From Oscillospiraceae bacterium (GTDB lineage Bacteria; Bacillota; Clostridia; Oscillospirales; Butyricicoccaceae), in NCBI GenBank assembly GCA_015068445.1, contig SVKN01000002.1, positions 1 through 64,000 on the forward strand: 64,000 nt of DNA, in the 5' to 3' direction. Position 1 is the first letter of the stretch. Each line of letters begins with the position of its first letter. The position numbers and the translations under genes were made by a program. Positions 24,212-31,503 of this stretch are shown here, one piece after another. Below the pieces are notes generated by a model, which made no database searches, was not told the origin of the DNA, and saw only the letters and a list, made by a program, of their open reading frames with translations.

Positions 24212-24240
24212 ATTATAGCTTTTTTGCGTCACTTTGTCAA
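24212..24240 (-). promoter_or_regulatory. Sigma-A promoter of the cbiMQO operon
   Basis: TTGACA, 17-base spacer, TATAAT: a full consensus promoter on the minus strand, starting four bases beyond the stop of the zinc-operon lipoprotein. Confidence 0.85.
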
Positions 24241-24244
24241 TACG

Positions 24245-24778
24245 TCAGCCCCTTGCGATCGTGGCGTCGACGAGGTGGCAGTAGAGGGTGCCGAGCTCCT
24301 CGTAGGTCTCGAAGGTGCCGGTGACGACGACCTCGGTGTCGTCCTTCGGGTAGAGGGAATCGTCCGCGAGGACGTATTCCAGGCCCTGGGAGCAGCAGGC
24401 GGTGGCATCCTGGATGATGACGGCGTAGTAGGTCTGCTTCGTCTCGTCCACGTAGACGGAGTAGCAGGGGCCGCCCATGCGCACGGTCTTGCCCACATAG
24501 TCCTCGGGGCTGACCATGATGTTGTTGACCTCGGCGTAGACCATGTTGGCGTTCATCTGCGTCAGGTCGAGGTCCACGTCATCGTCTGCGGACGCTTCGG
24601 GGAGCTGGTCGGCGGTCAGGCCGGTCTTTTCCTCCGGCTTCGCGTTTTCGGCGTTCAGCACGTCGGCGACGGTGGGCGTATTGGTACTGCTGGCCTTGGA
24701 TGCGGCCGTTTCTCCGCTGCCGCAGGCGGTGAGCATAAGCACACAGAGGGTCAGCGCGAGGATGATGGTTCTTTTCAT
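24245..24778 (-). CDS. Lipoprotein linked to zinc uptake, unknown family
   Basis: 177-residue secreted lipoprotein: signal peptide with lipobox LTAC (Cys19), a Thr/Ala-rich linker to about residue 70, then one globular domain. That domain contains VNNIMVSPEDYVGKTVRMGG and a vicinal Cys pair in QDATACCSQGLEY. The last part (EVVVTGTFETYEELG) looks like an OB-type beta barrel. It is the last gene of the zinc importer operon and overlaps znuB by four bases. I suggest, without proof, a zinc-binding or delivery role at the cell surface. Confidence 0.8.
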   Translation of the reverse strand: MKRTIILALTLCVLMLTACGSGETAASKASSTNTPTVADVLNAENAKPEEKTGLTADQLPEASADDDVDLDLTQMNANMVYAEVNNIMVSPEDYVGKTVRMGGPCYSVYVDETKQTYYAVIIQDATACCSQGLEYVLADDSLYPKDDTEVVVTGTFETYEELGTLYCHLVDATIARG

Positions 24779-25623
24779 CGGATGAAACCTCCTGTTTTCA
24801 ATTTATCCCAGAGGGCGAACAGCCCGAAGGCGGCGAGATCGACGGCCACGATGGTGGAGCCCACGGGCGTCGAGGTGACGATGGAGATCAGCAGCCCCAG
24901 CAGGGCGCAGATCACGGACAGAACGGCGGAGCAGATCGTCACGGAGCGGAAGCTCCGGAACACCCGCATGGCCGACAGCGCCGGGAAGATGACGAGGGCC
25001 GAGATCAGCAGCGACCCCACGAGATTCATGGCCAGCACGATGATGACCGCCGTCATCAGCGCGAGGATCATATTGTACGTCCCGGCGCTGACGCCGGTGG
25101 CGGAGGCGAAGTTCTCGTCAAACGTGACGGCGAACAGCTTGTTGTAAAGCAGCACGAAGGCGGCCAGCACCAGCGCGGACAAGACGATGCACAGATACAC
25201 CTCCCCCTTCGTCAGCGTCAGGATCGACGTGGAGCCGAAAAGCGTGGTGCACACGTCGCCCGAGAGGTTGCCGCCGGGGGTGAAGATGTTCATCAGCAGG
25301 TAGCCGATGGCCAGCGCGCCCACGGACAGCATGGCCACGGCGGCGTCGCCGCTGAGCTTCGCCTTCTGCCCCGTGCGCAGCAGCAGCACGGCGCAGACCA
25401 TGGTGATCAGCAGCGTCAGCGGCATTTCGTTGGTCATTTTCATCACGGACGCCACGGCCATGGCGCCGAAGGCCACGTGGGACAGGCCGTCGCCGATGAA
25501 GGAGAAGCGCTTGAGCACCAGCGACACGCCCAGCAGCGACGAGCACAGAGCGATCAGCACACCGACGATCAGCGCGTAGCGCACAAAGGGGAAGCCGAGG
25601 TAATAGATCAGTCTGTCGATCAC
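24775..25623 (-). CDS. znuB: Zinc ABC transporter permease (ABC-3 family)
   Basis: Integral membrane subunit of a high-affinity zinc importer, 282 residues, about eight helices. ABC-3 family landmarks include LKRFSFIGDGLSHVAFG near residue 40 and NLVGSLLISALVIFPALSA near 200. It overlaps znuC by four bases upstream and the lipoprotein gene by four bases downstream. Zinc rather than manganese is inferred from the His-rich loop of the cognate binding protein. Confidence 0.93.
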   Translation of the reverse strand: MIDRLIYYLGFPFVRYALIVGVLIALCSSLLGVSLVLKRFSFIGDGLSHVAFGAMAVASVMKMTNEMPLTLLITMVCAVLLLRTGQKAKLSGDAAVAMLSVGALAIGYLLMNIFTPGGNLSGDVCTTLFGSTSILTLTKGEVYLCIVLSALVLAAFVLLYNKLFAVTFDENFASATGVSAGTYNMILALMTAVIIVLAMNLVGSLLISALVIFPALSAMRVFRSFRSVTICSAVLSVICALLGLLISIVTSTPVGSTIVAVDLAAFGLFALWDKLKTGGFIR

Positions 25624-26336
25624 GCCTGTTCCCCTCCCCTCTCCTCGCTGAGGAACAGCCGGCCCACGGCGCTTTTGACGTACTCGTCCCGGGGGCCGAA
25701 AAAGACGCTGTGGCCGATGTGCAGGATGTGGCTGGCCCGGCGCAGAGCGACGGCGATATCGTGGGAGATCATGATGATCGTGATGCCCTCCTTCTTGTTG
25801 AGGTCATCGATGAGGCGGTACATCTCCTCGGTGACGACGGGATCGAGACCGGACACCGGCTCGTCCAGCAGCAGGAGCTTCTGGGTGGCGCACAGCGCCC
25901 GGGCCAGCAGGACCCGCTGCTGCTGGCCGCCCGAAAGCTCCCGGTAGCAGCGGTCCTCCATGCCCTTGAGGCCCATCTTCTCGATGTTGCGGGCGGCCAG
26001 CGCCTTTTCCTCTTTATTGTAAAAGGGGCGGAAGCCACAGCGACCCTGACAGCCGGACAGGACGATCTCGCGGATCGAAGCGGGGAAATCCCGCTGGACA
26101 AGCGTCTGCTGGGGCAGGTAGCCGATCTCCCGCTGGGTGAGGCCGTCACCGGTCGTGATGCTGCCGCCCATGGGCGCGCGAAGGCCGAGGATCGTCTTCA
26201 TCAGCGTGCTTTTGCCGGAGCCGTTTTCGCCGACGATGCACAGATAGTCCCCGGGGTCCACCTGAAAATTGAGACCCCGGAGGATGGTCTCGCCGTCATA
26301 GCCCAAGGCGAGATCACAACAGGTGATATAGGCCAT
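25620..26336 (-). CDS. znuC: Zinc ABC transporter ATPase
   Basis: ATPase of the zinc importer, 238 residues. Walker A is GENGSGKST, Q-loop region YLPQQT, signature LSGGQQQR, Walker B LLLLDEPVSGLD and switch His in MISHDIA. The order znuA-znuC-znuB, with an 11-base gap and then a 4-base overlap, is a standard operon. Confidence 0.94.
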   Translation of the reverse strand: MAYITCCDLALGYDGETILRGLNFQVDPGDYLCIVGENGSGKSTLMKTILGLRAPMGGSITTGDGLTQREIGYLPQQTLVQRDFPASIREIVLSGCQGRCGFRPFYNKEEKALAARNIEKMGLKGMEDRCYRELSGGQQQRVLLARALCATQKLLLLDEPVSGLDPVVTEEMYRLIDDLNKKEGITIIMISHDIAVALRRASHILHIGHSVFFGPRDEYVKSAVGRLFLSEERGGEQA

Positions 26337-26347
26337 ACCGTTTCTCC

Positions 26348-27352
26348 TTACTTGAGCGCGTCTTTCAGCACGCGCAGGTTGTTTTCCATCACGGACAGAT
26401 AGTCATCGTCGAGGCTGGTGGTGGACTGCATGGAGTCGAGCTCCAGCACCGCGGCGGTCTTGTCCGCCGTGTTTTCCACCACGGTCTGCGCCAGCTTGCC
26501 GTCACCGCCCTCCAGCTTCATGACGCAGCCGAGGCCCAGCGCGTCCACCTTGTTCGCCAGGAAGATGACGGTCTCAAAGGACGCCTCGCTCTCGGCGGAG
26601 CAGCCGACGAAGGCGGCGTAGTAATCGAGGCCGTAGTCGCCCGCGAGATAGAGGAACGGGAACCGGTCACCGAAGACGAGGGTGTCCTTCGTCCCGGCGG
26701 CCACGGCCGCGGCGTAGCGCCGATCCAGATCCGCCAGCTTTTCATCGTAGGCGGCGGCGTTTTTATTGTAGGTCTCCGCATGGTCGGGGTCGAGCTCGCA
26801 GAGCTCGTCCGCGATGGCGGCGACGAAGGTCCGGGCGTTCTTCAGCGACAGCCAGACGTGCTCGTCATACTCGTGCTCATGCTCTTCTTCGTCATGGTCC
26901 TCGTCATGGTCCTCGTCATCGTGATGGTGGTCCTCCGGCTCCATGCCCTCCTTGATCTCTTCCTCCCGGGCGTCGTCGCCCAGCAGGGCCAGCATATCAA
27001 GGGTGGCCATGTCCTTATTCTCAGCGGTCTTGAGGGCGTCCTCCACCCATTCGTCAGATTCGCCGCCCACGTAGAGGAACAGGTCTGCGCCGCCGACCTT
27101 GACGAGGTCGTCCACCGTAGGCTGGTAGCTGTGCAGATCGACGCCCTTGTCCAGAAGCAGCGTCAGTTCCACGTCGCCTGCCCGGTCGCCCAGCACCTGC
27201 CGGGTCCAGTCGTACAGCGGGAACGTGGTGGCGACGACCGAGAGCTTTGCGTCCGGCTGTGTATCGGACGCTGTGTTCCGGCCGCCGCAAGCGGTCAGCG
27301 TAAGGACCAGGGCGAGAGATAACGCCAGGGCCAGGATGTATTTTGTTTTCAT
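26348..27352 (-). CDS. znuA: Zinc ABC transporter substrate-binding lipoprotein
   Basis: Surface zinc-binding protein of the cluster A-I (ZnuA/AdcA) type, 334 residues. Lipobox LTAC gives Cys22. The fold motif ATTFPLYDWTRQVLGD follows. Metal ligands are expected at HSYQPTVDD and DEHVWLSLKNA. Between them is a long acidic His-rich loop (EDHHHDDEDHDEDHDEEEH), typical of zinc rather than manganese carriers. The ATG at 27352 is preceded by AGGAG; the longer open frame has no ribosome site. No promoter is evident directly upstream, so expression probably depends on read-through from 27831. Confidence 0.94.
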   Translation of the reverse strand: MKTKYILALALSLALVLTLTACGGRNTASDTQPDAKLSVVATTFPLYDWTRQVLGDRAGDVELTLLLDKGVDLHSYQPTVDDLVKVGGADLFLYVGGESDEWVEDALKTAENKDMATLDMLALLGDDAREEEIKEGMEPEDHHHDDEDHDEDHDEEEHEHEYDEHVWLSLKNARTFVAAIADELCELDPDHAETYNKNAAAYDEKLADLDRRYAAAVAAGTKDTLVFGDRFPFLYLAGDYGLDYYAAFVGCSAESEASFETVIFLANKVDALGLGCVMKLEGGDGKLAQTVVENTADKTAAVLELDSMQSTTSLDDDYLSVMENNLRVLKDALK

Positions 27353-27395
27353 TGTTTTTACTCCTTTGTTTGTCAAGCTAACAGAATTGGGCATA

Positions 27396-27459
27396 AAAAG
27401 ATACAAGGGACGGCAAATGCCAAGCGGCCTGCCGGTGCGGCAGACCTGTCCCTTGTATC
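27396..27459 (-). terminator. Long three-way-junction terminator between the small zinc-operon gene and znuA
   Basis: Perfect 12-base arms GATACAAGGGAC / GTCCCTTGTATC enclose two smaller hairpins (CTGCCG-cac-CGGCAG and GGC-attt-GCC), followed by five T on the minus strand. It would reduce znuA expression relative to the gene at 27469 unless regulated. Confidence 0.7.
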
Positions 27460-27468
27460 AGAAATGCG

Positions 27469-27765
27469 TCAATTCGAGAGCTTGACCCTCAGCGTCACCG
27501 GGGTGCAGCGTTCGGCGGCGGGCGCGGAAATACGCCCGTCACGCGCGGCGGCCGCGTTCATGCTCAGCGCGACGGCCGTCATACAGACGATGACCGTCAG
27601 CCCTCTGAGCGCGGCGGCGCACAGCGCCAGCACCCGGCAGGTGAAGCAGTCCTCACCCGTGCAGTCATGGTCGGCGTTATGGACGATAAAGCACGCCGAG
27701 CCAAGCAGGGCGAGGACCAGCGCGGCGGCTGTGAGCGCCGTCAGCAGACGTGTTTTGTTGTTCAC
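27469..27765 (-). CDS. Small Cys/His-rich membrane protein at the head of the zinc operon
   Basis: 98 residues with two predicted membrane helices (about 8-28 and 44-70). The short segment between them is rich in possible metal ligands: His29, His33, Cys35, Cys40 and Cys43 (HNADHDCTGEDCFTC). The GTG start at 27765 has GGGAGGG seven bases upstream. It has its own promoter with an inverted repeat and is separated from znuA by a terminator-like structure. I do not know a named family. A role in zinc sensing or handling is inferred from position and ligands only. Confidence 0.75.
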   Translation of the reverse strand: MNNKTRLLTALTAAALVLALLGSACFIVHNADHDCTGEDCFTCRVLALCAAALRGLTVIVCMTAVALSMNAAAARDGRISAPAAERCTPVTLRVKLSN

Positions 27766-27800
27766 GTTCGGTCCCTCCCTTCGGGTTCGTTTATGATTCC

Positions 27801-27831
27801 GCATGATACCACATTCATGCGAAAAAGTCAA
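27801..27831 (-). promoter_or_regulatory. Promoter of the zinc operon with overlapping inverted repeat
   Basis: TTGACT, 17-base spacer, TATCAT (27831-27803) on the minus strand. A 20-bp inverted repeat, GCATGA-N8-TCATGC (27801-27820), covers the -10 and part of the spacer and is a good place for a Zur-like repressor. It does not match the B. subtilis Zur box closely. Confidence 0.6.
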
Positions 27832-31029: not shown

Positions 31030-31503
31030 ATGAGTCTGTACGACTATCAAATGAAGGACATCAACGGCGCGCTCGTCGACCTTTCCGATTACAGAGGGAA
31101 GGTCCTGCTGATCGTCAACACCGCAACCAATTGAGGCTTCACGTCACAGTACAAGGGGCTGGAGGTCCTCTACGAAACCTATAAGGATCGGGGTTTTGAG
31201 ATCCTTGACTTTCCCTGCAATCAGTTTGGCGGTCAGTGCCCGGGGTCCGAGCAGGAGATCGCCGCGTTTTCCGAAAGCAATTACGGCGTGACGTTCCGTC
31301 AGTTCGCCAAGATCGAGGTGAATGGCGACAACGAGGCGCCGCTGTATGCCTGGCTGAAATCCCAGAAAGGCGGGATGCTGGGCAGCAACATCAAATGGAA
31401 CTTCACAAAGTTCCTCATCGACCGTGACGGAAGAGTCGTGGACCGTATCGCGCCCAACGTCCCAGCCGCAAGGATCGAGAAAAAAATCAAGGAGTTAATC
31501 TGA
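31030..31503 (+). CDS. Glutathione peroxidase, selenocysteine-containing (TGA at 31132-31134 read as Sec35)
   Basis: Thiol-dependent peroxidase of the GPx family, 157 residues if the in-frame TGA at codon 35 is read as selenocysteine. The context NTATN-U-GFTSQYKG is exactly the catalytic loop of Sec-GPx. The rest is complete: Gln69 in FPCNQFGGQ, and Trp123-Asn124 in IKWNFTKFLID complete the catalytic tetrad. It is a short, GPX4-like form without the oligomerisation loop. The ATG follows AAGGAGG at eight bases, and the promoter is consensus. No other lesion interrupts 158 codons, so a nonsense pseudogene is unlikely. A candidate SECIS hairpin lies just after the TGA. The alternative is a stop that leaves a 34-residue peptide. 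It heads an operon with TSCPD, flavodoxin and OhrR genes. Confidence 0.85.
31149..31173 (+). promoter_or_regulatory. Candidate bacterial SECIS hairpin
   Basis: Lower stem GTA / TAC (31149-31151 with 31171-31173), a three-base bulge CAA, upper stem GGGG / CCTC (31155-31158 with 31067-style partner 31167-31170, one G-U pair), and apical loop CTGGAGGT (31159-31166). The loop starts about 24 bases after the TGA, inside the range known for bacterial SECIS elements, and contains exposed G residues. Pairing was done by eye. Confidence 0.45.

Follow-up and report, generated by a model that had tools for sequence, protein, structure and literature searches.

Bacterial zinc uptake is taught as being controlled by Zur at the promoter. 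In the window, by which we mean the whole stretch of 64,000 nucleotides analyzed here, a small open reading frame (ORF) of 98 residues stands before znuA and shares its direction. The question raised by this locus is whether the protein is an extra zinc-handling part beyond ZnuABC, as the original prediction held, or whether the ORF regulates the operon that it precedes. On re-reading, the coordinates of the ORF proved exact, and the residues H29, H33, C35, C40 and C43 are present at the predicted positions. The gene behind it was confirmed as znuA by PF01297 and is followed by znuC and znuB, and the lipoprotein with Cys-Cys in TACCSQG that had been noted at the far end of the operon was likewise recovered. 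On one strand, the gene order is thus the ORF, znuA, znuC, znuB, the Cys-Cys lipoprotein and then a cobalt-type ECF transporter, with the following features:

27803-27831, minus strand: promoter of the leader ORF, TTGACT-17 nt-TATCAT with TG before the second hexamer (sigma-70-type, 10/12 matches)
27469-27765, minus strand: leader ORF with stop codon, 98 residues, GTG start (ORF reading)
27682-27747, minus strand: hydrophobic stretch at the N-terminus, codons 7-28, serving as signal anchor or signal peptide (hydropathy 2.43)
27637-27669, minus strand: codons 33-43, metal motif H-x-C-x4-C-x2-C (column conservation)
27472-27504, minus strand: codons 88-98, C-terminal 11-mer TPVTLRVKLSN up to the stop codon, candidate arrest motif (conservation)
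27395-27459, minus strand: three-way-junction intrinsic terminator, hairpin 27400-27459 and U5 tract 27395-27399, candidate znuABC attenuator (folding and covariance model)
26348-27352, minus strand: znuA, zinc-binding lipoprotein with His-rich loop, putative regulated gene (PF01297, E 4.4e-70)
25620-26336, minus strand: znuC, ATPase (PF00005, E 8e-29)
24775-25623, minus strand: znuB, permease (PF00950, E 2.5e-44)
24245-24778, minus strand: Cys-Cys lipoprotein carrying TACCSQG (translation; relatives at four other leader loci)

The znuA gene starts with the ATG at 27352 and is the only PF01297 gene found in the window's genome. Neither Pfam nor NCBIfam returned a significant match for the ORF protein (P0001), twelve of its relatives matched no Pfam family consistently, and PHROGs gave a single weak match of 14 residues (E 0.009). 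The ORF does head the zinc operon by position, as predicted, but it is not a plain first cistron: because a strong terminator-like hairpin (27395-27459) lies between it and znuA, it is better described as an operon leader. Two further features of the window may be recorded here. A perfect 12/12 promoter (TTGACA-17-TATAAT, 24212-24240, minus strand) lies directly behind the Cys-Cys lipoprotein and before the cobalt-type ECF transporter genes. A glutathione-peroxidase-like frame at 31030-31503 (plus strand) contains one in-frame TGA at about 31132, at the position of the catalytic residue (NTATN-TGA-GFTSQY), and by its sequence is likely a selenocysteine enzyme; a selB gene scores over the cut-off in the window's genome.

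A first search of 99 relatives yielded the window copy, five clear homologues and four poor matches (L008-L011), which were spurious by reading frame or absent motif and were dropped. Profile searches then located the leader ORF in 9 of 87 family-sample genomes, 31 of 394 order-sample genomes and 23 of 391 class-sample genomes. Six further genomes from the window's genus gave no copy, and the distribution is patchy, skipping whole genera. The 59 profile-found genes, 54 first examined and five further copies, form set 1. In 53 of them (48/54 and 5/5) znuA follows directly; homologues lacking a zinc context or the His/Cys ligands were looked for and were largely absent, and the predicted link to zinc is real and strong. 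The other six stand before relatives of the Cys-Cys lipoprotein (L034, L040, L042, L043), before znuC (L070) and before an unrelated ABC ATPase (L049). A Fur-family gene lies just upstream of the leader ORF in 18 of the 54 genes (the L003 copy matches PF01475, E 3e-18). The start codons given for relatives follow a rule applied by script, and L070, which has an internal stop, was left out of the conservation, terminator-threshold and anti-Shine-Dalgarno analyses, leaving 58 members.

Set 1 was found by a profile that includes the C-terminus, and a fairer test of the C-terminal motif is provided by set 2, for which named genomes were searched with a 36-base pattern that covers only the metal motif (at least 120 stretches, 80 loci read, 78 ORFs complete). 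Among the matches listed, znuA lies within 700 nt of 69 of the 78 complete ORFs and a Fur-like gene upstream of 22 of the 78. The nine without a nearby znuA, again among the matches listed, comprise two Treponema loci with a CobW-type GTPase and then znuA, two with znuC-znuB, one with znuA as the second gene, one with an ABC ATPase, one at a contig edge and two chance matches (L144, L165), the last two being kept in the denominators. Hosts among these matches include Christensenella, Oscillibacter ruminantium, Coprococcus comes, Eubacterium ruminantium, Treponema and Synergistaceae.

Genes other than znuA behind the leader ORF extend this picture. Relatives of the Cys-Cys lipoprotein were recognized there at E 2e-19 and E 3e-29, and pairing the ORF with this lipoprotein, as the original prediction did, was a good guess. 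Because the leader ORF directly precedes this lipoprotein at four other loci, the lipoprotein probably belongs to the zinc-regulated parts. Its family has no significant match in Pfam or NCBIfam, and only a weak one to TIGR03943 (E 0.005). In the Treponema loci L101 and L119, the leader ORF is followed by a CobW-type GTPase with CICC (PF02492 in the L101 copy) and then znuA; this is possibly a zinc allocation GTPase within the leader's transcription unit. An ABC ATPase unlike ZnuC follows the leader ORF in L131, which has the three-way-junction terminator, and in L049 (L098); we know of no zinc link for ATPases of this type.

Conservation within the peptide is bipartite. It comprises the HxC..CxxC loop and a C-terminal 11-mer at the stop codon, separated by a spacer that is near-random in sequence and fixed in length. 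Among 37 members of equal spacing, mean pairwise identity is 0.45 in the metal loop, 0.56 in the C-terminal 11-mer and 0.12 in the spacer. Column identity in the metal motif of the 37 aligned members is 0.95 for the histidine, 0.62 for the first cysteine and 1.00 for each of the other two, and H33, C40 and C43 are invariant in other comparisons of homologues. His29, predicted as a further ligand, was dropped, its position not being conserved across relatives; H33, C40 and C43 are conserved and C35 mostly so. The distance from the last cysteine to the C-terminus is 52-57 residues in 58/58 members of set 1 and in 74/78 of set 2, exactly 55 in 44 of the latter among the matches listed; from CxxC to the C-terminal 11-mer it is 44 residues. 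The 11-mer has the consensus [TS][LP]VxLKV[KR]Lx[ND] and contains no RAPP, PP or proline-rich motif, and to our knowledge it resembles no proven arrest motif. A loose form of the pattern was matched by 71 of the 78 set-2 ORFs among the matches listed, although the motif was unused in finding them. Codons within the 11-mer vary synonymously, which indicates that selection acts on the peptide. As to the predicted loop between two helices, the first hydrophobic segment is present in all 58 set-1 members (hydropathy >1.6), while the second holds only in part: the spacer is hydrophobic in 51/58, not so in 7/58, and almost without sequence conservation. A two-helix membrane protein is possible, given the 51 hydrophobic spacers.

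At the ORF end, the final codons, together with the bases immediately following the stop, pair with the Shine-Dalgarno sequence of znuA. The stretch from -20 to +16 around the stop was paired with the Shine-Dalgarno region of the next gene, and true pairs were compared with permuted ones. In set 1 (58 loci, a few of which are followed by a gene other than znuA), matched pairs reached -14.23 kcal/mol against -9.52 kcal/mol for permuted pairs (sd 0.35), with 0 of 20000 permutations as strong. In set 2, among the matches listed, 66 loci, with L166, L157 and L138 omitted because they were regarded as repeats of loci in set 1, gave -13.15 against -9.29 kcal/mol (sd 0.32), again with 0 of 20000. Kinship among the loci persists in these permutation tests and is equally present in the controls, for which coding segments further upstream in each locus were used; as-strong permutations numbered 16019 and 1228 of 20000 in set 1, and 117 and 2759 of 20000 in set 2 among the matches listed. 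The control at 117 of 20000 is mildly significant, with a shift of 0.7 kcal/mol compared with about 4-5 for the stop region. The anti-Shine-Dalgarno bases lie mostly in the last codons in three-way-junction loci and just after the stop in others. In the window copy this pairing is weak (-3.7 and -5.7 kcal/mol) and only the terminator is strong, while part of the family has the pairing alone, without terminator. At fixed thresholds, 14 of 58 loci have neither a terminator nor a significant anti-Shine-Dalgarno, in a count of terminators that includes some Shine-Dalgarno helices. Taken at the sequence level, these comparisons demonstrate that across the family the ORF end co-evolves with the Shine-Dalgarno sequence of the next gene, and that the mRNA has an element which would couple ribosome position at the ORF end to that gene.

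Some family members, among them the window copy, have a terminator between the ORF and znuA. The window hairpin begins 9 nt after the stop codon (-44.1 kcal/mol, z -7.6) and matches the covariance model at 59.9 bits; nowhere else in the window's genome does the model match strongly. Where P1 is taken as the outermost helix, it begins 9-17 nt after the stop. In an alignment fitted to a related model, and hence biased toward it, 13 of 23 pairs are changed on both sides and pairing stands at 91.4% compared with 82.7% when shuffled. Across the 394 genomes of the order sample, the best 14 terminator matches all lie directly behind a leader ORF, four weak rows (G247 twice, G047, G187) being left out of this count; the named set gives 19 at E 0.01 or better among the matches listed. 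Rfam gave nothing at the gathering threshold for the window and, for 14 loci, weak unrelated matches besides a T-box. In many terminators, such as those of L036 and L051, conservation extends past the U tract (GCGCCC or AUGCCC, then a second T run); an antiterminator role for this tail is unlikely because it lies past the termination point.

Promoter-like sites are enriched before the ORF, in loci without Fur upstream: 32 of 40 in set 1 (expected 7.7) and 30 of 44 in set 2 among the matches listed (expected 8.0). In the gap between ORF and znuA they are not above chance, with 2/58 (expected 3.8) in set 1, 3/66 (expected 5.7) among the matches listed in set 2 and 0/16 in three-way-junction loci, and the promoter scan found none between the window ORF and znuA. 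Expression of znuA therefore most likely depends on read-through from the leader. A perfect 7-base inverted repeat (CGCATGA-N8-TCATGCG, 27800-27821) overlaps the -10 box of the leader promoter and is a possible repressor operator, perhaps of Zur type.

Several other explanations deserve consideration. The ORF might encode a membrane-bound zinc chaperone or ZnuA partner that is translationally coupled to znuA, such that ZnuA would receive zinc from the loop, the C-terminal tail would dock onto a partner and the Shine-Dalgarno pairing would keep the two proteins in proportion. The conserved zinc-type ligands, the constant zinc-gene neighborhood, the N-terminal hydrophobic segment (58/58) and the hydrophobic spacer (51/58) would all fit such a protein, but a spacer identity of 0.12 at fixed length, and the absence of the second hydrophobic segment in 7/58, would not. 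Moreover, the strongest conservation adjoins the stop codon, and coupling alone leaves unexplained why there is a conserved terminator between ORF and znuA and why promoters lie only upstream. We regard this explanation as unlikely, and an extra zinc-handling part is not the best reading of an ORF whose spacer is unconserved in sequence but fixed in length, whose C-terminus is most conserved and whose stop region pairs with the znuA Shine-Dalgarno. It is these same properties which argue for a cis-acting regulatory leader ORF.

Conversely, the RNA itself could be the regulator, the three-way-junction terminator acting as a metal-sensing riboswitch and the ORF being incidental. Its strong covariation (13/23 pairs changed on both sides), its place before znuA and the lack of an Rfam family speak for this, but only part of the family has the terminator, others showing an anti-Shine-Dalgarno alone, and the synonymous codons reveal protein-level selection on the peptide. 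The riboswitch, very improbable on these grounds, was rejected as the best 14 matches in 394 genomes all follow the leader ORF and Rfam offers no relevant match. Equally improbable is an ordinary gene with its own terminator beside an independently transcribed zinc operon. The window does contain a promoter and a terminator for the ORF, but the ORF end pairs with the znuA Shine-Dalgarno across relatives, and this explanation was rejected for want of a promoter in the gap (0/16 three-way-junction loci; 2/58 and 3/66 overall, the latter among the matches listed).

A zinc-linked regulatory leader ORF, with a layout like that of CruR and CutF although it fails their profile and C-terminal motif, is thus well supported, and the layout, the promoter position, the terminator and the co-evolution of ORF end and Shine-Dalgarno are established by sequence comparison. 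In our view, the ORF of 98 residues probably acts in cis as a zinc-responsive leader of this kind for the znu operon, for which we infer arrest and zinc sensing. When zinc is scarce, the C-terminal motif would stall the ribosome on the stop codon or close to it. In this position, judged by its usual footprint, the ribosome would cover the anti-Shine-Dalgarno and the 5' arm of the terminator, so that the polymerase would read on and znuA would be translated. When zinc is available, it would bind the loop emerging beyond the ribosome (and the translocon), and folding or pulling would release the arrest; with the ribosome gone, the terminator and the helix blocking the Shine-Dalgarno would form and zinc import would be turned off. 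Arrest near the stop, masking of both elements and release by zinc would operate alongside Zur, the likely gene for which stands immediately upstream of the leader in many relatives.

Like CruR of Bordetella pertussis (DUF2946, PF11162), the znu leader is a short, putatively exported uORF heading a metal-uptake operon, with a CxxC metal motif at a conserved distance from the C-terminal motif, namely 45 residues from CXXC to the arrest motif in CruR (PMC9426467) and 44 in the znu leader. In CruR, copper relieves arrest and shuts off the uptake gene (PMC9426467) by transcription termination between uORF and gene, as would putatively happen in the znu leader; the sign of the switch proposed here, in which zinc relieves arrest and turns import off, follows this example. 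Arrest by CruR was later shown in vitro (PMC12992588). Unlike the znu leader, CruR senses copper and uses a RAPP arrest motif and Rho-dependent termination, where the znu leader combines an 11-mer abutting the stop with an intrinsic three-way-junction terminator, an anti-Shine-Dalgarno or both.

CutF of Rhodobacter capsulatus (DUF2946; PMC9973294) is likewise an exported nascent metal sensor, a role that the znu leader may share, and its layout is similar: a stem-loop hides the Shine-Dalgarno of the next gene and is opened by uORF translation (PMC9973294). However, copper switches the next gene on in CutF, which carries CxxxC and a proline-rich C-terminus (PMC9973294), and this C-terminus caused no arrest in a SecM-type assay (PMC9973294). 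Copper sensing is placed in the periplasm by the CutF authors (PMC9973294) and in the cytoplasm by the CruR authors (PMC9426467). The filter of the CutF survey required PP near the C-terminus (PMC9973294), and the znu leader family would therefore have failed it. SecM, MifM, VemP and other Sec/YidC monitors share an N-terminal targeting segment, a C-terminal arrest motif (a candidate one here), a downstream regulated gene and a patchy distribution, but differ in that they monitor protein export (PMC10987492).

Of the DUF2946 traits, the znu leader has the CxxC at fixed distance and lacks the PF11162 profile and the RAPP or proline-rich motif; PF11162 was not among the families matched up to E 1 in 13 members scanned (P0001 and 12 relatives). 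It also has the trait of metal-sensing uORFs of lying directly before a metal-homeostasis gene on the same strand. RAPP-type arrest peptides before metal genes have been reported (PMC12992588), and neither zinc nor znu occurs in the available text of that paper or in that of the Sec/YidC monitor survey (PMC10987492). Among open-licence papers, we found none on a zinc-linked arrest peptide before znuA.

More broadly, we incline slightly toward the view that these ORFs form a large undescribed family of zinc-sensing arrest peptides in Clostridia, Treponema, Synergistaceae and other groups, which would be a second, translation-level switch beside Zur, with a new arrest motif at the stop codon whose codons double as anti-Shine-Dalgarno in part of the family; related leaders would also drive other zinc-linked genes, namely those for the Cys-Cys lipoprotein and a CobW-type GTPase. 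If true, this would provide a zinc counterpart of CruR and CutF, in which the nascent chain reads zinc on leaving the ribosome and gates znuABC, and metal-sensing arrest peptides would then be known from Gram-positive gut bacteria and spirochaetes as well. It would furthermore establish a new arrest motif, supply the function of a family without a Pfam or NCBIfam name, and caution against annotating such ORFs as zinc-binding membrane proteins.
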